From NCBI RefSeq assembly GCF_000303155.1, contig NC_018719.1:1-64000 (forward strand): a DNA stretch of 64,000 nucleotides, read 5' to 3'. A model generated the notes under the pieces. That model worked only from the letters and a program-made list of their open reading frames with translations. It made no database searches and was not told where the DNA came from. This stretch comes from Candidatus Nitrososphaera gargensis Ga9.2. GTDB taxonomy: Archaea; Thermoproteota; Nitrososphaeria; Nitrososphaerales; Nitrososphaeraceae. Below, one piece after another: positions 49,587 to 60,703 of the stretch. The position numbers and the translations under genes were made by a program. The number at the start of each line of letters is the position of its first letter. Positions within the stretch are counted from its first letter, which is position 1.

Positions 49587-50708
49587 ATGCTTCAAGCCCT
49601 GCCCGTCAAGCTGGAAACAAGCGGCGACGAGAAGGCTCTCCTGCTTGCCACCATGAAAAAGTATAATGAAGCAGCAAATTTTCTTGCTGAACAGGCATTT
49701 CGGTTGAAGATAGCAAACAAAGTAGAGCTACAAAAGAGGTTCTATTATCAACTGCGAGAACAGTTCAACTTATCTGCACAGTTTGCCGTCCGTGTGATAA
49801 GCAAAGTGGTTGAAGCATACAAAAAAGACAAAAGAATCAAACCTGTGTTTAGAGAACTCGGTGCTATCCAGTATGACCAGCGCAACCTTTCATGGAAAGG
49901 ACTGGATAGAGTATCAATGATAACACTGAAAGGTAGAATCAAACTCCGCACAAGAATAGGTGAGTACCAGAAATCAAGAGCAGACAGAATAAGAGGACAG
50001 GCAGACCTGATATACAGAAAAGGTGAGTTCTACCTCATCGCAGTTGTTGATGCTCCAGAACAGTCAGAGTTTGACCCCGTAGGAGCTATCGGCGTTGACC
50101 TTGGAATCGAAAACATTGCCACCGATAGCGACGGTCAGGTATTCCGCGGGGAGACGATAGAGAAGGCAAGGAAGCGATATAATAGTCTGCGAGCTCGGCT
50201 GCAAAAGAAGAGCACACGATCTGCAAAGCGACATTTGAAAAAGATGTCTGGCAGGGAGAAACGCTTCAAGCGTGACATTAACCATGTTATCTCAAAAGCC
50301 ATTGTCTCCAAAGCCAAAGGCACCATCAGAGCGATTGCACTAGAGGATTTGAGTGGAATACGCTCTAGGGCAACGGTTATTGGGCGCAAACAACAAAGAG
50401 ACAGACACAGCAAGTGGTCTTTCAGACAACTACGAGCGTTTGTGGAGTACAAGGCAAAGCGGGATGGTGTTCCTGTCAAGTTCGTTGACCCAAAGAACAC
50501 TTCTCGTGAATGTCCAAAATGCCACAACATTGACGCAAGAAACAGACGTACACGAAACCACTTCAAGTGTACAGAATGCGGATATGAGGCAATGGCTGAT
50601 CATGTTGCTGCTTGCAATATAGCAGCTAGGGCTGCTGTCAACCAGCCCATTGTAGCGCCTCTTTTTTCGGCAGTTACAAGCCCACTTGCTTTAGCAGTGG
50701 GTAGTTGA
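49587..50708 (+). CDS. tnpB: TnpB RNA-guided nuclease, intact
   Basis: 373 aa. The RuvC-like catalytic acids are all present: Asp in IGVDLGIEN, Glu in ALEDLSGIR and Asp in MADHVAACN. The zinc finger has CPKC and CTEC. TnpB cuts DNA guided by an RNA from the element's right end and helps retain IS605-type elements. The stop codon lies inside the right end (AGCAGTGGGTAGTTGACC, 50690-50710). No Y1 transposase is nearby, so it is IS1341-like. Sequence is quite different from the other TnpB copies. Confidence 0.92.
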   Translation: MLQALPVKLETSGDEKALLLATMKKYNEAANFLAEQAFRLKIANKVELQKRFYYQLREQFNLSAQFAVRVISKVVEAYKKDKRIKPVFRELGAIQYDQRNLSWKGLDRVSMITLKGRIKLRTRIGEYQKSRADRIRGQADLIYRKGEFYLIAVVDAPEQSEFDPVGAIGVDLGIENIATDSDGQVFRGETIEKARKRYNSLRARLQKKSTRSAKRHLKKMSGREKRFKRDINHVISKAIVSKAKGTIRAIALEDLSGIRSRATVIGRKQQRDRHSKWSFRQLRAFVEYKAKRDGVPVKFVDPKNTSRECPKCHNIDARNRRTRNHFKCTECGYEAMADHVAACNIAARAAVNQPIVAPLFSAVTSPLALAVGS

Positions 50709-50813: not shown

Positions 50814-51830
50814 ATGCGGAAAGAACACGCAAGCAACAACACTAGCAAAAACAAGCTTCTAGCACTGGCAATAGCAGCCGCACTCGTAGCATCGATATTG
50901 AGCATAGTAGGAGGCAGCATACCAAGTGCGTCCGCAGCAGAGCCCAAGACAATAAACGCAGGCACAGGTCAAGGCTTGCTGTACTATGAGGCGCACAGGA
51001 TACCAAGCAGCCACTGGAACCCGTGTTTTGCCACGAGCTGTGACCAAGGAACCGGACCGGGCACGTGGGTGTGGTTTGTACTCTTCAACGATGCAGGTGA
51101 GCCCATCGTGGCCGACCTTGCAAACGAAGACGGCGTACTCATAACAGGCCTTGAGGTAGGAAAGACGTACTTCCTGCAGCCGACCGACTGTGTCTATCCA
51201 AACTGCGGAGAACCGCCACATGACGTGATATTCAACAACTGGCACGACTGCGATGATACAAGACAAAGACCGTTTGTAATCGCGGCAGGCACTATAGTAT
51301 CAGGAGCAGCATATTACAGGTACCACCTCCATGGCGAACCAAATGAGCCGGTAGCATGTTTCACTACAGGTACACCCAACCCGCCTGCAAACAACAACCC
51401 ACCCCCAACCAACAACCCACCTCAAAACCCCAACCAGCCTACAAGCCCTGGGACAGTTGAGACCGGAATGACAGATCCTGTCTTCTACTTCAAGCTGGTC
51501 AACTTCGTGAACAACGAGTTTGGTATTGGCACAGTAATAGCAGAAGAGAACGACACTAGGACAGCAGCCGAGATATTAGCCGAGCAAATCCCAGACACCA
51601 ACCTCTCAGGTCAGCCTCTGGATTCCGATTCATCACTGAGATATGCAATGTATAACTCACTGTACGAGATCGTCAGAGATGACCCTGTAAGCTGCATGCA
51701 GATCATGAGGGCAGCCGTGGACGCAGGCATACCTTGGGATCAGCTGTCTGATATGCAAAAGGCGTACATAATCCTCAAAGTGAAGGGATCCTCGCTGGAC
51801 GCAACAAATGTAGACTTTGGCAACCTCTAA
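50814..51830 (+). CDS. Secreted protein with Pro/Asn linker, upstream of S-layer genes
   Basis: 338 aa with a signal peptide (about 14-42, ending ASAAE). A Cys-containing N-terminal domain of about 150 residues (HWNPCFATSC, CVYPNCGEPP, WHDCDD) may form disulfides. A Pro/Asn-rich linker (about 184-205) and a helical C-terminal domain (about 220-335) follow. No anchor. It is separated from the S-layer candidate by a terminator, so it has its own transcript. Likely a surface-associated protein; not recognised. Confidence 0.78.
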   Translation: MRKEHASNNTSKNKLLALAIAAALVASILSIVGGSIPSASAAEPKTINAGTGQGLLYYEAHRIPSSHWNPCFATSCDQGTGPGTWVWFVLFNDAGEPIVADLANEDGVLITGLEVGKTYFLQPTDCVYPNCGEPPHDVIFNNWHDCDDTRQRPFVIAAGTIVSGAAYYRYHLHGEPNEPVACFTTGTPNPPANNNPPPTNNPPQNPNQPTSPGTVETGMTDPVFYFKLVNFVNNEFGIGTVIAEENDTRTAAEILAEQIPDTNLSGQPLDSDSSLRYAMYNSLYEIVRDDPVSCMQIMRAAVDAGIPWDQLSDMQKAYIILKVKGSSLDATNVDFGNL

Positions 51831-51831
51831 A

Positions 51832-51870
51832 GCAGACCTGGCCCGTCTGCATTTTTTCTTTTTTCTTTGT
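51832..51870 (+). terminator. Hairpin and T-tract terminator
   Basis: GCAGAC (51832-51837) and GTCTGC (51845-51850) form a 6-bp stem with a 7-base loop just after the secreted-protein stop. The run ATTTTTTCTTTTTTCTTT follows. T-tracts terminate archaeal RNA polymerase; the stem may help. Confidence 0.7.
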
Positions 51871-51998
51871 ATCTTTATATGTTTTTGCATGCTCAATTTA
51901 AAATACTACGAGTTCATGTTTAGATAACCACAAATTTCTATAAAAACTACAAATTTATGAGGCACGCTGTCAGCAAGATGAACCTTTCGTTCACAAGT

Positions 51999-52006
51999 TT
52001 TATATA
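51999..52006 (+). promoter_or_regulatory. TATA box of the S-layer candidate gene
   Basis: TTTATATA lies 29-36 bases before the ATG at 52035. Archaeal TATA boxes centre about 26 bases before the start site, so the transcript would be almost leaderless. The upstream 100 bases are A/T-rich with no competing gene. Fits a strong promoter. Confidence 0.65.
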
Positions 52007-52034: not shown

Positions 52035-55000
52035 ATGCACGATAGTACGAATAGCTTTAGCAAGAAGTCAGTAGGTTCAATAGCAATAGCTGCCTTGCTT
52101 ATTTTCGGCATCTATAGTATATTGCCTCTGACATCAGGTGCATATGCTCAAGGAACGGTCACTATCACGACAAGTGCTGATGCCCACAACAACAGATTCT
52201 TTGGGCCAGCGCTGTTGGAAGTGATGTTCACGAGCTCACAACATGCAGCTGATAACGCACAAGGAACAGCACAAGTAACAGTAACCGCATTTGGTACACA
52301 ACGCCAGTTATCTCTTAATGAGACTTCACAAACCAGCGGTATCTTCCTAATGTATGTCAAAGTAGACAACTTGGGGAATCCAGCAAACACATTAGGCAGT
52401 GCTGAAGATCCACAGACACCAGCAACACCATTTTCAAGTACTAATACACGCCTATACATAGGTACTGGCGGCAGTGGAGACAACTCTGCGTATCCAAACA
52501 CCAGCGGTAGTGCACCAAACCAGACAGTTGAAAGGACGATCAGTCTTAACTCTGTCTCTGGCCTAGAAGGCGGTCAAATTACATTCTCGTTCGGTGGCGT
52601 GCAAAAGACAGTCACATGGGACGACTCGACAGCATCTGTATCACTGGACAGGACAAACTATGGACCGGGTGCTACAGCATACGTGGTAGTTGAAGACCAA
52701 GACATGAACCTTGACCCAACAGCAGTGAACACTTTTTCAGATACTGCAAGTGCTCCTGCCAATCAAAACCTGACCAACGGTGTTGATAAGGGATCATCAC
52801 TCACCTACACTGAAACAGGTGCAAACACTGGCAAGTTTGAAATAACCTATACAATAGGTATCCTGACTACTGGCACATCCCAAGGCCGCTCACTGACAGT
52901 AAATGACTTCAAGAACTTCACAGCTTCGGGAACCACAATAGCGTTGGGTTCAGGCACAGGAGGCTCAGGTTCGCCAATAGGATCAAGCTCTGCGTCCTAT
53001 ACAGTTCAAAGAGTCTCTGGTGGCCTTGGAGCAGTAAGTAGTGTAACCTATGCAGGCGAGCTTCCATTAACTGTAAGTGACTCTGACAGGAACTTGAATT
53101 CAAAGGCACAAGAAAGTCTCAACACTAAGCTACAAGTCAACGAGCCTAGCCAGACAAACAAGAGGGAATTCAACCTAAGAGAACAATCGCAAAGCAGCAA
53201 CACATTCGTTCCAGCTTATGGTCAGGATAGAATCATTCTGACATGGAAGCAGAACACAACTGAAGCGCAAGGCATCTTGAAATTGCTACCAGGCCAAGAA
53301 GCAACCATCAGATACGAGGACGATGTTCCATCAACCGGCGGACCCGCGAACACATCGTCAATTACAATAAAGCCAACCAATACAGCACCTACTCTGTCAG
53401 CCGACAAGACTACCGTGGGCAGGTCATCAGTCATAGGGCTGACAATGAACGATCCAGAGCTCAACGATGACAGCCAAATCGTAGAATCATACACAGTCAC
53501 ATTTACTGGCACTACTGCAGCAACTAATGTACCCGCATTCCCAAGCACCATAAGTCCGTTCTCCCTGAAAATAGACAAGAACGGAGCGGCGATGACAATA
53601 TCTCCTAACTTCTCTGTGACATTCACAGAAACAGGTCCAAACACAGGCGTCTTTACAGCAGAAGTAGATCTGTCTGACCTTGCAGCTAGTCCAGCGCTTG
53701 CAGATGGTGACACACTCAAGATTGAAGTAAACGACATTCTTGAGCCCGGAGAATCAGAGACTGCAGATGTAAGCCTGACGGTCGGACTCGAAAAGCCAAC
53801 AGTCAAAGTGGACAGATCCACAGTACCAGTTCCAAGATTGGCAACTGCTGACGATTTCGTAACCCACGGAATAGCATCTAACTCAACAGGTTCAGCCAGA
53901 GACAACATCGCTAACACAGGTCCTGTCGACATCGTAATAACGATCACAGACCCTAACAGAAACAATAGCACAATCAACGAAGAAACACTCGGCAGTGGTA
54001 CTGCATTCACAACCGTCACGGGAGGAAATGTAGCAAGACAGGTATTCTCATATGATGGCGGAAGACTGGTTCTAACATTGGATGCCGCACCTGGTCAGCT
54101 ATTCGCCAATACAGCTGGAATCACCATGACTGATGCACTCAAGGAAACCGGCTTTAACACTGGCATCTTCCAAGGTACAATTAGAGTAGACCCATCAGTC
54201 GCAGGCAATGACGATCCACTATGGATTGGTGCAAAGCTAAAGATTGAATACAAGGGTCTATCTGTTGCCAGTTCAACCGATGATGCAAACGCAGTGACTG
54301 TGACATTCACGGCAAGGCAGGCTGTCCTGAGTACAGACACATCAACGGTTGTCAACGGTGGCGAAGTGACATTCACAGTCACTGACCAAGATTCCAACCG
54401 CGATCCAGATACAGCTGAAAAAGTCAAAATCAGAGTAGCATGGACTGGTGCTAACGGCAATGCACAAAATAGGTGGCTTGAACTTGAAGAAACAGGCAAG
54501 GACACTGGTGTCTTCACAGAAACAATTGCAGTAGGCGATGACACGATAGACGGCATTACATTCGATGTTGAATCAGACTCAGAGGTAGATGTCTTCTACT
54601 ACGATGCTACGCCAAGCGTATCTGCATCTACTAATTGGCCAGCACTGGGAAGCACAAACGGCAGGCACGAGAAGACACTACAAGTCGGAGCTGCATCAGG
54701 CTCACTTGACCTCGGCATAACAGGAACATCAGTCGGACCATCATCAGAGATAGATGTCACTATATTTGACACAGACGTGAACACCAACCCGAACACCAAG
54801 CAGATAATAGGACAAGGTACAGGAAGCTTGATCACAGTTGCAACAGACGCAGGCATTGAAGTCCAGCTAGATGCCGAAGAGACAACAGGCAGCAGTGCAA
54901 GGTTCGTAGGCACAATCAAGCTGCAAGCTGACGCAACACCTACTCAGGCAGAAGTCGCAGGCGATGACTCGACAGAAGTAACGATCCCTGTTTCGCCGGG

Positions 55001-55805
55001 CGATGTCGTCTCTGTAAGATATGAAGACCAGAATGACGAAAACGGAAGAAGGACGACCATCTCGAAGCAATTCACAGTGGTCAGCGTCGATCCAGAGATA
55101 ACTACAGACAAGAATGTCTATGCAGCAGGCGACCAGATGAAGATAACACTGGCCGACCTTGACAGAGACAGAGACCCAGATAGCAACGACATCGTCAACG
55201 TCAAGGCAACATCGACAAGCGACCTAGTGGGACTCTCGAGCGTACAGCTGATTGAGACAGGACCCAACACAGGCGTATTCGAAGGAACGCTGACTCTGTC
55301 AGCCCAGTTCTCGTCGGGTTCGCTGACTGTGAAGAATGGCGATGTAATCACCATCAAGTACACAGACGACTTCCCGGCTGACTACGAGGAAAGAGTAGAT
55401 GCAGGTGGTACAACCAGCAAGGACTTCGTTAAGACAGTACCAGTAGGCACCTCCGGTACGACAAAGACTACAACACCAAGCAAACCAGAGTTGAAAGATG
55501 CTCAGGGCAGACCAGTGACTCAAGTACTGGCAGGTCAACAGGTAGTGCTGTCAACCACAGTCAAGAATAACGAAGCAGCATCGACTCCATATGCAGCAAT
55601 AGTCGAAGTCAGAGACTCTAAGGGCATAACTGTGTTCCTCAACTGGCAGACAGGCACCCTGCAAGCTGACGGCACAACCGGCATTGGCTTGTCATGGACA
55701 CCTGAAACACCAGGCACATACACAGCAAGAGTCTTTGTACTGAGCGGACTCACCAACCCACAGATCCTGTCAGAAACGATCACATCGACCATCACCGTGA
55801 GCTAA
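52035..55805 (+). CDS. Giant repetitive surface protein, probable S-layer (SlaA-like)
   Basis: 1256 aa with a signal peptide (about 12-38, GAYAQ) and no C-terminal anchor. At least six or seven Ig-like repeats carry two landmarks each. One is an acidic loop such as VEDQDMNLDP, VTDQDSNRDPD, LADLDRDRDPD, suited to calcium. The other is ETG.NTG.F (ETGANTGKF, ETGPNTGVF, ETGFNTGIF, ETGKDTGVF, ETGPNTGVF). Thr/Ser/Asn-rich with many sequons and a single Cys-free body. Size, composition and promoter fit the main S-layer protein of an ammonia-oxidising archaeon. Confidence 0.85.
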   Translation: MHDSTNSFSKKSVGSIAIAALLIFGIYSILPLTSGAYAQGTVTITTSADAHNNRFFGPALLEVMFTSSQHAADNAQGTAQVTVTAFGTQRQLSLNETSQTSGIFLMYVKVDNLGNPANTLGSAEDPQTPATPFSSTNTRLYIGTGGSGDNSAYPNTSGSAPNQTVERTISLNSVSGLEGGQITFSFGGVQKTVTWDDSTASVSLDRTNYGPGATAYVVVEDQDMNLDPTAVNTFSDTASAPANQNLTNGVDKGSSLTYTETGANTGKFEITYTIGILTTGTSQGRSLTVNDFKNFTASGTTIALGSGTGGSGSPIGSSSASYTVQRVSGGLGAVSSVTYAGELPLTVSDSDRNLNSKAQESLNTKLQVNEPSQTNKREFNLREQSQSSNTFVPAYGQDRIILTWKQNTTEAQGILKLLPGQEATIRYEDDVPSTGGPANTSSITIKPTNTAPTLSADKTTVGRSSVIGLTMNDPELNDDSQIVESYTVTFTGTTAATNVPAFPSTISPFSLKIDKNGAAMTISPNFSVTFTETGPNTGVFTAEVDLSDLAASPALADGDTLKIEVNDILEPGESETADVSLTVGLEKPTVKVDRSTVPVPRLATADDFVTHGIASNSTGSARDNIANTGPVDIVITITDPNRNNSTINEETLGSGTAFTTVTGGNVARQVFSYDGGRLVLTLDAAPGQLFANTAGITMTDALKETGFNTGIFQGTIRVDPSVAGNDDPLWIGAKLKIEYKGLSVASSTDDANAVTVTFTARQAVLSTDTSTVVNGGEVTFTVTDQDSNRDPDTAEKVKIRVAWTGANGNAQNRWLELEETGKDTGVFTETIAVGDDTIDGITFDVESDSEVDVFYYDATPSVSASTNWPALGSTNGRHEKTLQVGAASGSLDLGITGTSVGPSSEIDVTIFDTDVNTNPNTKQIIGQGTGSLITVATDAGIEVQLDAEETTGSSARFVGTIKLQADATPTQAEVAGDDSTEVTIPVSPGDVVSVRYEDQNDENGRRTTISKQFTVVSVDPEITTDKNVYAAGDQMKITLADLDRDRDPDSNDIVNVKATSTSDLVGLSSVQLIETGPNTGVFEGTLTLSAQFSSGSLTVKNGDVITIKYTDDFPADYEERVDAGGTTSKDFVKTVPVGTSGTTKTTTPSKPELKDAQGRPVTQVLAGQQVVLSTTVKNNEAASTPYAAIVEVRDSKGITVFLNWQTGTLQADGTTGIGLSWTPETPGTYTARVFVLSGLTNPQILSETITSTITVS

Positions 55806-55856
55806 GTAGGTTGAGGTAAAACCTACTTACCTCCGTCCCTTTCTTTCCTTTTTGTT
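55804..55856 (+). terminator. Internal terminator/attenuator between the two surface-layer genes
   Basis: AAGTAGGTT (55804-55812) and AACCTACTT (55820-55828) form a perfect 9-bp stem that overlaps the TAA stop of the S-layer candidate, followed by CCCTTTCTTTCCTTTTTGTTTT up to the next start. Partial termination here would give much more of the first protein than the second, as a lattice and its anchor would require. The ratio is inference. Confidence 0.7.
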
Positions 55857-55862
55857 TTGAAA

Positions 55863-56942
55863 ATGAACGTTCGCAAGAATACAAGAAAAAGTTTCCCAAA
55901 AGGTTCAGTTTTATCCGGCTTTGCCGTATTTTCAATTTTAATAATATTGGCCGCTCTACCCATAGCGACATTTCTTGTTTATCTGCCGTCGGCCGAATTT
56001 GCCAGCGCTCAAGACAGCGCCGAACGATTCAATCTGAATCTAAGCTCTGATGTATTTGCACCTGGCGATACTGTCATCCTTTATGGAAAGGTAATCCCTG
56101 AAGATGCTATTGTAGTAAGGCTGTTTGACCCAAGTGGCAAGGTATTGAGACTTGAGACTTTTACAGCTCGTAGCGATGGAACAATCACGGAACAGGTTTT
56201 TGTCTGGCCGGAACCATCAAAGCAATACCCATTTGGGATCTATTCGCTTGAAGTTAGATCATCAATAGTGCCTTCAGATGTCAAGACTTTTTCAGTCTAT
56301 TATGTTGACATCACAGGAGCCGGCTCTTCATCCGGCGCGCCAAGCTCGGCCAGCTTGGTGGTAAAGCTGGATGCGCCTACACTGGTTTCAACGAACTCGC
56401 AATTCCGGATATTTGTGCAGGTAACGTACAACGGCGCGCTTGTTAATGCTGAAGATGAACAGCTATCCAACCTCCTTGGGTCATCGCACATCCATTTTGG
56501 CGACTCGACAAATGCAACGGCCATCAGCCTGTCTGGCAGGTTCCACAAGCTCCATGAAGGGCTCTACTATGCAGATGTCACGCTGGACCGGGACGGCTCG
56601 TACATCATGCACTCGATCGCTTTTCACAATGGCTTCCTCTCGCACGACTCTCGAGTCGTGGTCGCCAGCAGCGCCAGCATAGGCTCTGTTCAGGAATCAG
56701 TTAACAGGCTCAACGAGAGGCTCGACGTGACAAACAGGTCCCTAGATCAGACCAACGCGTCGCTTAACACCACCAAAAACGCGCTGACCCAGTTTGCACA
56801 AGACACCAGCTCTACGATAGGTCAAATGAGGGACGCCTCTGGCCAGATCAATGGGCTGATACTCCCAATACTCGTGCTGATCTCGATTATTATAGCCCTG
56901 CAGATATCGCTCTTTGCCAGAATCAGGGCATCATATAGGTAG
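55863..56942 (+). CDS. Membrane-anchored coiled-coil surface protein (SlaB-like stalk candidate)
   Basis: About 359 aa: N-terminal signal (about 20-48), two beta-rich extracellular domains (about 55-150 and 165-275) and a coiled coil (about 278-325; SVQESVNRLNERLDVTNRSLDQ). A final membrane helix (about 332-352, LILPILVLISIIIALQISL) ends in a short basic tail. This is the order of an S-layer stalk: outside domains, coiled coil, anchor. ATG at 55863 follows the terminator at once; TTG at 55857 is an alternative. Read with the gene upstream, it is the probable anchor. Homology to Sulfolobus SlaB is not claimed, only architecture. Confidence 0.78.
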   Translation: MNVRKNTRKSFPKGSVLSGFAVFSILIILAALPIATFLVYLPSAEFASAQDSAERFNLNLSSDVFAPGDTVILYGKVIPEDAIVVRLFDPSGKVLRLETFTARSDGTITEQVFVWPEPSKQYPFGIYSLEVRSSIVPSDVKTFSVYYVDITGAGSSSGAPSSASLVVKLDAPTLVSTNSQFRIFVQVTYNGALVNAEDEQLSNLLGSSHIHFGDSTNATAISLSGRFHKLHEGLYYADVTLDRDGSYIMHSIAFHNGFLSHDSRVVVASSASIGSVQESVNRLNERLDVTNRSLDQTNASLNTTKNALTQFAQDTSSTIGQMRDASGQINGLILPILVLISIIIALQISLFARIRASYR

Positions 56943-57167: not shown

Positions 57168-57563
57168 TTACCAGCTTTCAACCGTCAGGCCCGGCACCAT
57201 TTCAAAATGCTTGATGTTTCTTGTCAATAGAGTCTGTCTGTTAGCAATGACGATGCTCGCTATCAGCAGATCTAGCGGCTCTATTATGTTTGACTTTAAT
57301 TTCTCTGACAACTGTCCGTACAATCTTGCAGCTGCAAAATCAAGTGGAAGGGCAGGAAATGTTTCAAGTAACCTGTCTGCTTGGTCCAATGCAGTTGCCT
57401 TGTCTTTTGCTCTATAAGCACCGAAATAAAATTCGGCAACATTGACTGACGTAGTAGAGACGGTATCGCCTCTCGATTCCAATTGCTCCATCTTTCTTAT
57501 GGCTTTCTCATCTTGATCCTTTAGGTCTATCAAAAAATCAGTGTCAGCACAGAGAATCGCCAT
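57168..57563 (-). CDS. vapC: VapC PIN-domain ribonuclease toxin
   Basis: 131-aa PIN protein: Asp in CADTDFLID, Glu in VAEFYFGAY, Asp in EPLDLLIAS, TRNIKHFEMVPGL end. Overlaps its vapB by one base. Complete; closely related in pattern to the toxin at 39102. Confidence 0.92.
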   Translation of the reverse strand: MAILCADTDFLIDLKDQDEKAIRKMEQLESRGDTVSTTSVNVAEFYFGAYRAKDKATALDQADRLLETFPALPLDFAAARLYGQLSEKLKSNIIEPLDLLIASIVIANRQTLLTRNIKHFEMVPGLTVESW

Positions 57564-57796
57564 TATCCAAAGTCAAACTCCCGCATCTTGAAGTCCCTGC
57601 GCATCTCCTTGCTGGCCTGCCTTACGCTTTGTGATAGGTCAGGGTTTGGTTTCATACTTTTGACGACAGCTAGGATTCTGGCAGGATCGCCTTTTGGAAA
57701 CTTGCGCAGTATCACATCAGAGAATGACTCGCCCTCTTTTTTTGCGGCCTTTAGCGCATTGTATGCCTCGTCAGATAACATGACTGGTTTTGCCAT
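57563..57796 (-). CDS. vapB: VapB-type antitoxin
   Basis: 77 aa. Residues 1-33 match the VapB at 38866 at almost every position (KPVMLSDEAYNALKA, EGESFSDVILRKF), while the tails differ. Shared DNA-binding half suggests similar operators and cross-talk; different tails suggest specific toxin pairing. TATA-like tract at 57800-57825 precedes it. Confidence 0.88.
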   Translation of the reverse strand: MAKPVMLSDEAYNALKAAKKEGESFSDVILRKFPKGDPARILAVVKSMKPNPDLSQSVRQASKEMRRDFKMREFDFG

Positions 57797-58299: not shown

Positions 58300-58530
58300 G
58301 TGGATACAACAATACAGATTGACAAGAAAACTAGGGACAAGCTAAAAGAGCTCAAAATACACCCAAAAGAATCCTATAACAATGTGGTTGAAAGGCTGTT
58401 GGCATTGAGAATTGACGAAGAGGAACTGAGCGAAGAGACGATAAGAGACATAGAACAAAGCTTGGAGGACGTTAAAGCTGGCAGAACGTTGTCGATGCAA
58501 GAAGTCAAGCAAAGATTGAAGATTAAATGA
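58300..58530 (+). CDS. relB: RelB-like antitoxin
   Basis: 76 aa (GTG start): DTTIQIDKKTRDKLKELKIH with an RHH-like strand-helix start, then an acidic helical tail (EEELSEETIRDIEQSLEDVKAG). Overlaps the toxin gene by 4 bases. Very similar in layout to archaeal RelB antitoxins. Confidence 0.8.
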   Translation: MDTTIQIDKKTRDKLKELKIHPKESYNNVVERLLALRIDEEELSEETIRDIEQSLEDVKAGRTLSMQEVKQRLKIK

Positions 58531-58784
58531 CTTTTGAAATAAGGTGGACAGAGTCTTCATTTAACAAGCTTCAAAAGCTCGACTTCCTTACTCAAACAAG
58601 AATAATTGAAAAACTCGACGAGGCAGCCAGCGATCCGTTTCTTGTGGCAAAAAAGCTAACTGGAGTCAACCTATATTCAATTAGAATTGGAGATTACAGA
58701 GTGATAGTAAGCATTGAAAAGAACAAGATGATCGTATTTGTCATTGATCTCGGTCATCGAAGCAAAATCTACAAGAAACTGTGA
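58527..58784 (+). CDS. relE: RelE-family mRNA interferase toxin
   Basis: 85 aa with the RelE fold: TFEIRWTESSFNKLQKL, DPFLVAKKLTGV, YSIRIGDYRVIVSIE and FVIDLGHRSKIYKKL, including the basic/Arg and His residues near the C-terminus. Coupled to the antitoxin upstream. It probably cleaves mRNA on the ribosome. Confidence 0.88.
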   Translation: MTFEIRWTESSFNKLQKLDFLTQTRIIEKLDEAASDPFLVAKKLTGVNLYSIRIGDYRVIVSIEKNKMIVFVIDLGHRSKIYKKL

Positions 58785-59416: not shown

Positions 59417-60703
59417 AGAAAACCCACACTCTTTAGAGGTGGGATGAATTTGGTTCCCGTCAATGAATCTTTTCCTCTACCCCCCACCCCACCCTCCCGC
59501 CAAAGTGCCTGAGACGTTAAATAGTAGTAGTAATAGTGATGTGTACAAAAAAATGCTCAACTACAAGTTCCGCCTATATCCAACGAAAGAGCAGGAGCTT
59601 CTGTTAGAGCAAACTCTGGATGGCTGTAGATGGGTGTACAACTACTTTCTCTCACTACCATCGCCAATGTCAGAGTACGACATGAACTATGCCTTGACTG
59701 AATTAAAAGAGCAACACCCATGGCTTCGCAAATACTACCACTCTAAAATGTTGCAGATGGTGGCAAAACAGGTTGCAGCAGCTAGAAAGGTAGCAAAGGG
59801 CCGCAAGCTTTCATACAGAAAGGACAGCGATTTCAACTCATTTACATATAACCAGTCTGGCTTTCGGCTCGAGAATAACAACAGGCTGTCACTTTCCAAG
59901 ATAGGCAGGATAAGGATTGTACTACATCGTCAACCAGTCAACGTCAAGCAGGTGACAATATCTCGTACAAAGACTGGCAATAAGTGGTACGCTATTGTAG
60001 CCTGCGATGTACTGCGCAGGTCATTTTCAACGATAATCAGGTACGCAAAGCCTGTTGGTATAGATGTTGGCATTGCCAAGTTCTGCCATCACTCTGACAA
60101 CCATGTGGAAGACAACCCGCAGTTTCTCACAAAGATGCTCAGACCACTGAGAAGAGCTCATAGAAGAGTGTCAAGAAGGCAGATAGGCAGCAATAATAGA
60201 AAGAAAGCAAAGCGCATGCTTGCCAGACTATATGAAAGGATAAACAACAAGCGTAAGGATTTCCTGCATAAAAAATCGGCGTACTATGCCAGCCGCTATG
60301 ACCTGATATTTCTTGAGAGATTGCGGGTCATGAACATGACCAAGAACCACAGGCTTGCACGCAAAATCCTGGACGCAAGCTGGTCTGCTTTTAAAAATAT
60401 GCTGCAGTACAAGGCCAACCGCGTTGTAGAGGTAGAGCCATCATACACATCGATTAACTGCTCAAGGTGCGGCCATCCAGTACCAAAGTCACTTGCAGTA
60501 CGTATTCATGTTTGTACAAAGTGTGGTGCAATACTTGACAGGGACTATAATTCTGCCATCAATATCCTCAAGCGAGGACTGGAGTCGTTAGTGCTACTAC
60601 TACTACCGGTGGAACGCCGGGAAGTTACGCCTGTGGAGATCGTACTACAACAGCGGTCGCTGAAGCAGGAAGAAGCCCACGTCTTAAGACGTGGGTAGTT
60701 CAC
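59398..60703 (+). mobile_element. Intact TnpB element J with both ends
   Basis: Left end 59398-59462: outer stem ACGGGAACCA (59406-59415) with TGGTTCCCGT (59451-59460), and an inner hairpin CCCAC...GTGGG with a CTTTAG tip. Right end: perfect 20-base palindrome CCCACGTCTTAAGACGTGGG at 60676-60695 followed by TAGTTCACC. No TnpA. The bases just before the left end read CTTTATCCTGAT. The right-end palindrome is identical to that of the decayed copy at 49459. Confidence 0.78.
59553..60698 (+). CDS. tnpB: TnpB RNA-guided nuclease, intact
   Basis: 381 aa from ATG at 59553 (30 codons of open frame upstream come from the left end). N-terminal HTH/wedge starts LNYKFRLYPTKEQ. Catalytic acids: Asp in GIDVGIAKF, Glu in IFLERLRVM and Asp in LDRDYNSAIN. 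Zinc finger CSRCG...CTKCG. The C-terminal tail (PVERREVTPVEI, EEAHVLRRG) is read through the right end, and the stop TAG lies just outside the right-end palindrome. All catalytic parts are present, so it may be active. Confidence 0.9.
   Translation: MLNYKFRLYPTKEQELLLEQTLDGCRWVYNYFLSLPSPMSEYDMNYALTELKEQHPWLRKYYHSKMLQMVAKQVAAARKVAKGRKLSYRKDSDFNSFTYNQSGFRLENNNRLSLSKIGRIRIVLHRQPVNVKQVTISRTKTGNKWYAIVACDVLRRSFSTIIRYAKPVGIDVGIAKFCHHSDNHVEDNPQFLTKMLRPLRRAHRRVSRRQIGSNNRKKAKRMLARLYERINNKRKDFLHKKSAYYASRYDLIFLERLRVMNMTKNHRLARKILDASWSAFKNMLQYKANRVVEVEPSYTSINCSRCGHPVPKSLAVRIHVCTKCGAILDRDYNSAINILKRGLESLVLLLLPVERREVTPVEIVLQQRSLKQEEAHVLRRG

Follow-up and report, generated by a model that had tools for sequence, protein, structure and literature searches.

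The S-layer locus of Candidatus Nitrososphaera gargensis Ga9.2 is read here as a two-component operon, in which an exchangeable lattice protein is combined with a conserved docking domain and a stalk protein, and the stalk gene slaB is reached by attenuated read-through. This reading is given a probability of about 0.7. The locus lies within the window, which is the whole stretch of 64,000 bases that was analyzed from a genome of 2,833,868 bases in one contig. In the proposed mechanism, a strong promoter with a dedicated dyad would drive the lattice gene, and a stop-codon hairpin together with a U-tract would end most of the transcripts. A minority of read-through would supply SlaB, which has no recognizable promoter of its own here, and this minority would leave the lattice protein in excess over the anchor. 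The C-terminal helix of SlaB would sit in the membrane, the coiled coil would rise from it, and the two beta domains would face the lattice. The C-terminal Ig domain of the lattice protein would be the part matched to the SlaB of each lineage, and the rest of the lattice could be exchanged by recombination between conserved ends with the attachment kept. In ammonia-oxidizing archaea (AOA), the S-layer is believed to act as a sieve that concentrates ammonium, and viruses are encountered at its outer face.

The lattice S-layer protein gene (slaA-type SLP) was located at 52035-55805 on the forward strand and encodes 1256 amino acids with no cysteine and 11 N-glycosylation sequons. An earlier sequence-only reading of the locus had given this protein a signal peptide and no anchor; the open reading frame does encode a signal peptide and lacks a membrane helix at its C-terminus. 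The signal peptide and the homology to the N. maritimus SLP (NmSLP) identify the AOA Ig-array S-layer type. The alignment with NmSLP (8c8k_A, E 7.5e-21) covers residues 1028-1256, which are the last two domains, and the C-terminal domain of the window SLP is the counterpart of the C-terminal part of NmSLP. The NCBIfam Kustd1514 S-layer model scored 72 bits, far under its cutoff. In the NmSLP type, negative charge is expected to increase toward the membrane side; here, the net charge per 100 residues falls to -12 and -13 at residues 801-1000 and is then -6 and -2. Three segments of the gene, all on the forward strand, were delimited by identities, trees, and AU tests. They are a constant 5' end that encodes the signal peptide and the residues next to it (about residues 1-60, 52035-52214), an exchangeable lattice body of about 1,070 residues (about 61-1134, 52215-55436), and a C-terminal Ig-like domain with its linker (about 1135-1256, 55437-55802), which follows the genus and slaB and not the body.

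The slaB-type stalk or anchor gene follows on the same strand (55863-56942). The protein has 359 residues when started from the ATG at 55863 and 361 from the TTG at 55857, of which the ATG is the likelier start. A search for related loci with the single window protein recovered none, and an alignment used as the query recovered 47 named loci. At E 1e-10 or better, slaB was detected in 153 of the 275 genomes searched in the order; within the genus, each of the seven genomes with a completeness of 90% or more has it. Conservation of the gene pair across Nitrososphaerales had been proposed earlier as a check on the two-gene unit. The slaB gene adjoins the SLP gene in 10 of 10 Nitrososphaera-clade genomes in which slaB was found, and also in Nitrosocaldus and in most of the Nitrosopumilaceae loci examined. 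Among the searched genomes of the order, slaB is missing as well in the other genera of the family that lack SLP. In Nitrosocosmicus-type genomes, the two genes are jointly absent, as also stated in the available text of a 2024 Nitrosocosmicus paper (PMC11559005).

A paired stalk gene had been put forward as worth testing, but the pair is already published. According to von Kuegelgen 2024 (PMC11153153), most Nitrososphaerota have a minor SlaB homologue whose C-terminus carries a membrane domain, and in N. maritimus it is considerably less abundant than SLP. Abby 2018 (PMC5797428) describes, for Nitrosocaldus, a pair of S-layer subunits (NCAV_0187/0188) whose synteny is conserved. The reading that no anchor is known for AOA was dropped in view of these papers (PMC11559005, PMC11153153, and PMC5797428). 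The same two genes are shared between the window and the published AOA S-layers, i.e., NmSLP with its minor SlaB homologue, NCAV_0187/0188, and the slp/slaB survey. The portions of these papers at hand make no mention of a covarying stop-codon hairpin, a promoter dyad, or a body swap with constant ends.

The gap between the two genes contains a perfect hairpin of 10 bp that starts on the SLP stop codon (55803-55829, forward strand). The arms are TAAGTAGGTT (55803-55812) and AACCTACTTA (55820-55829) with the loop GAGGTAA between them, and the first three bases are the stop codon itself. A T-rich tract, read from the sequence as a probable archaeal U-tract terminator (55840-55858, forward strand), stops four bases short of the slaB ATG at 55863. 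The perfect stem on the stop codon and the T-tract before slaB had both been described by the sequence-only reading and are both present; the stem measures 10 bp and not 9. It is the longest perfect stop-codon stem among 283 ORF ends of this genome, of which 2% reach 8 bp; this background was collected from 14 sampled 20-kb stretches and the window and includes some false genes because the ORFs were picked mechanically. No family matching the locus was found in Rfam.

In Nitrososphaera and its sister genus, all 10 slp-slaB loci have a hairpin at the SLP stop. The stem is perfect over 5-11 bp in nine of them (at least 8 bp in seven) and imperfect in G003. A 7-bp stem is also present at the SLP stop of the more distant G049. 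The arms were found to covary across species. Native arms form 8.1 consecutive pairs on average versus 5.0 when arms are swapped between species, and the native pairing sum was reached by 0 of 100,000 permutations, which is not an exact probability because the species are related. A T-tract lies 3' of most SLP genes in the order. The hairpin was ruled out as a universal AOA S-layer feature: in the loci examined, Nitrosopumilaceae have the T-tract with no hairpin at the SLP stop, and in Nitrosocaldus the hairpin is weak or absent. A DNA operator for slaB was judged less likely, because pairing of the arms persists over loop lengths of 3 to 7. A secreted protein of 338 residues is encoded upstream (50814-51850); its gene also ends in a hairpin (51832-51850) and a T-tract, and the same combination was seen 3' of a few other genes in the sampled genome stretches.

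In most compact loci of the Nitrososphaera clade, slaB scores no better for a TATA box than random sequence. SLP promoters score 11-13 of 13 in 10 of 12 cases; the exceptions are G016, which has an uncertain start with the promoter at a later ATG, and G007, which has a truncated gene. The absence of a TATA box at slaB, set against the near-perfect box at SLP, indicates that slaB is probably served by read-through in the compact loci. A U-tract lies between co-oriented genes with no slaB promoter visible, which is the pattern of an internal-operon terminator. An attenuating terminator between SLP and slaB is therefore plausible, and the idea gains support from the covariation of the hairpin and from the lack of a visible slaB promoter in compact loci. 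Internal termination is known to lower downstream genes in Methanococcus (PMC10450193). The ioTTS of Methanococcus maripaludis reported there similarly place a U-tract between operon genes with unequally needed products; in the present locus, a covarying hairpin overlaps the stop codon, and a terminator role would be a prediction from sequence. No transcript or abundance figures for Nitrososphaera slaB were found in the literature searched.

The hairpin could instead be a 3'-end stabilizer or processing signal for the abundant SLP mRNA, with the SlaB level set elsewhere, i.e., by the strength of the translation start, by the T-tract alone, or by a separate promoter. This explanation is given somewhat worse than even odds. 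In G008, G003, and G020, the gap before slaB is longer, slaB perhaps has its own promoter (a possible TATA box is seen in G008), and the hairpin is kept, which suggests service to the SLP mRNA and not attenuation. The stabilizer would also fit the finding that archaeal termination at U-tracts does not strictly need a hairpin (PMC8716108) and the recurrence of hairpin and T-tract after the upstream gene and a few others. SlaB is also reported as sub-stoichiometric in N. maritimus, and the Nitrosopumilaceae have the T-tract but no hairpin; a hairpin is therefore not required for such a ratio. However, the gap in compact loci is nearly filled by the hairpin and the T-tract, and no slaB TATA box is visible; any 3' end formed there must therefore lower slaB. 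This last point counts against the stabilizer explanation.

The SLP gene has a mosaic history. By sliding identity, the window SLP shares about 42% of its body residues with G013 and with G037 (Nitrosocaldus-type, other family) and about 25-30% with other Nitrososphaera. Over the last 100 residues, the identity is 54-57% with most other Nitrososphaera, compared with 37% for G037. (G037 is presumably Nitrosocaldus cavascurensis-like, and G014 is taken to be N. viennensis-like.) Over the full length, the window SLP and that of G037 share 43% identity, versus the between-genera identity of less than 30% given in the available text of PMC5797428. The pattern is clearest between two Nitrosocaldus genomes, G037 and G053 (SLP genes L134 and L135). 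Their promoter and first 60 or so residues are 82.6% identical in DNA, the SLP body is about 25% identical in protein, and the last 125 or so residues are nearly identical (92% over the last 100), with the similarity continuing into slaB at 78% DNA identity. The body of G037 is 56-66% identical over about 460 residues to that of G013 (L124), which belongs to another family. A third Nitrosocaldus genome, G292 (L189), has the body of G053 and the same C-terminus.

The trees gave the same picture. In the body tree, the window genome (G000), G013, and G037 group together with support of 100/100. In the C-terminal-domain and SlaB trees, the two Nitrosocaldus are paired and Nitrososphaera is kept together. 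The AU test of the body rejected G037 with G053 (p 4e-68) as well as a single Nitrososphaera clade, and that of the C-terminal domain rejected G000 with G013 and G037 (p 4e-60); these p-values are indicative because the groups were named after inspection of the trees and the branches are long. The simplest reading of these sequence comparisons is that the lattice body was recombined between conserved ends, even across families. They suggest that the signal peptide and the C-terminal Ig domain follow the species and slaB, and that the body is exchanged.

It is improbable that the apparent lattice swap is an artefact, whether of fast evolution, of paralogy, or of errors in assembly. Repeated Ig domains, long branches, and biased composition were flagged in the trees, several SLP-like genes occur in some genomes, and G013 and G053 are MAGs, all of which would favor an artefact. 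However, rate alone cannot bring a pair from different families (56-66%) closer than a pair from the same genus (about 25%), and the G037 genome is in one contig. The swap has sharp junctions, which fall where the conserved DNA ends, and the AU tests strongly reject the alternative. Differential loss of ancient paralogues at one locus would still require recombination inside the gene.

A body exchanged across families would give such archaea a route to change the coat yet keep the attachment. In bacteria, exchangeable S-layer cassettes exist, such as the Clostridioides difficile S-layer locus. There too, the lattice sequence is replaced between strains and the attachment is kept; here, in contrast, one gene would have exchanged its interior across archaeal families and retained its signal peptide and C-terminal domain. 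The mosaic SLP and the promoter dyad described below seem to be undescribed before, and neither was found in a keyword search of the open-licence literature.

Judging from the mosaic genes, the last Ig domain of SLP is the candidate for the part matched to the anchor of the lineage. It is proposed from these comparisons that the domain is a SlaB-docking or membrane-proximal module, and it may be held by SlaB. The agreement between the C-terminal domain and SlaB may also merely reflect the species tree. According to the available text of PMC11153153, the last Ig domain of NmSLP is not resolved by cryo-EM, and its role is only speculated on. Other secreted proteins (L197-L207, L211, and L212) also carry copies of the domain, at the C-terminus or close to it; some are solitary copies of about 150-170 residues, and in L197 the domain is N-terminal. 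It is possibly a shared surface-retention domain; given these copies, it may have another role. A broader form of the proposal is that AOA keep a single-copy S-layer expression site with a fixed dyad, signal peptide, docking domain, and stalk gene, in which bodies are exchanged by recombination, even between families, and the C-terminal Ig domain serves SlaB as a universal plug. This form is tentative, with a chance that falls just short of even. If true, the plug would answer how AOA S-layers are anchored.

The stalk protein was modelled via AlphaFold2 from a 29-row alignment, with a mean pLDDT of 81.5. The model shows two beta domains (residues 57-147 and 165-269, 56031-56669), a coiled-coil stalk (273-325, 56679-56837) with three N-glycosylation sequons, and a C-terminal membrane helix (330-358, 56850-56936), which is the best conserved segment in the alignment; all are encoded on the forward strand. 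The long helix at residues 273-325 carries hydrophobic a/d heptads that fit a coiled coil and would be compatible with the trimeric form suggested earlier. The order of beta domains, coiled coil, and membrane helix that had been read from the letters, with structure prediction suggested as its check, agrees with this model. The NCBIfam SlaB model NF040788 matched the window protein with 36.8 bits and E 2.1e-9, not reaching its curated cutoff of 700 bits, and was matched by 27 of 29 orthologues (best E 4e-14). These matches support homology to SlaB, although under the narrow equivalog cutoff. The first Foldseek hit by E-value was the S. acidocaldarius SlaB, 8qox_B (E 1.4e-8). Aligned with the whole model via VIA-align 2, 8qox_B gave Z 11.8 over 276 residues, with an rmsd of 44.9 because the domain orientation differs. 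Complement-type tandem beta domains reached Z-scores level with or slightly above that of 8qox_B, matching the beta part only.

The SlaA/SlaB logic of crenarchaea, proposed earlier for the pair, is upheld by the SlaB model matches, the Foldseek ranking, and the gene adjacency. Similarly to SlaA/SlaB of Sulfolobales (PMC6911244, PMC10903991), a lattice gene is accompanied by a stalk gene, the stalk has a coiled coil between its beta domains and a membrane helix at the C-terminus, and the stalk is better conserved than the lattice. Here, however, there are two beta domains instead of three, the helix is much shorter, and the AOA SLP has no known sequence relation to SlaA. The alternative of a surface adhesin or sensor whose gene merely lies beside that of SLP is very improbable. 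In its favor, a beta-sandwich with a coiled coil is a frequent surface design, the top structural Z-scores go to complement-type domains, and the anchor role is deduced from sequence and a model. Against it, the SlaB model is matched by nearly all orthologues, S. acidocaldarius SlaB ranks first by E-value, slaB is not found where SLP is missing, and the neighborhood is conserved. Among phage records, none encoding a SlaB relative was found.

The SLP promoter (51979-52006, forward strand) consists of the dyad TGAAC-CTTTC-GTTCA (51979-51993), followed by CAAG and the TATA box TTTATATA (51999-52006), which has the full score. The dyad with CAAG is the sole exact match in the 2.83-Mb genome. The same geometry, TGAAC-N5-GTTCA directly before CAAG and TATA, is seen in the Nitrososphaera and Nitrosocaldus SLP promoters, and the half-sites in Nitrosopumilaceae are TGGAC/GTCCA. 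Of 121 genomes in the order, 29 have the strict pattern, each exactly once, and the reversed control gave 0. In 27 of these 29, the match precedes slaB by 3.6-5.5 kb and shares its strand; a further match (G195) fits an operon broken by a contig end. When two mismatches were allowed, the SLP promoter was recovered in several more genomes, alongside chance-level matches. An activator site would be the natural guess for the dyad from its sequence and position. The dyad offers a way to find the regulator of a protein that ranks among the most abundant in these cells.

A strict match in G041 (contig C78, 1935-1962, L243) precedes a KaiC-like ATPase gene, and no SLP or slaB was detected in this genome. 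A second recurring near-match, of the type AGAACAAATTGTCCACAAGCTTTATAGA, was found away from the SLP promoter in four Nitrosopumilaceae (G150, G153, G161, and G194). In the window, genes of the TnpB type (OrfB_IS605, Cas12f1-like TNB) flank the locus at 49587-50708 and 59463-60698. Toxin-antitoxin genes of the VapBC type (PIN, VapB) and of the ParE type lie directly downstream of the S-layer pair (57168-57796 and 58300-58784).
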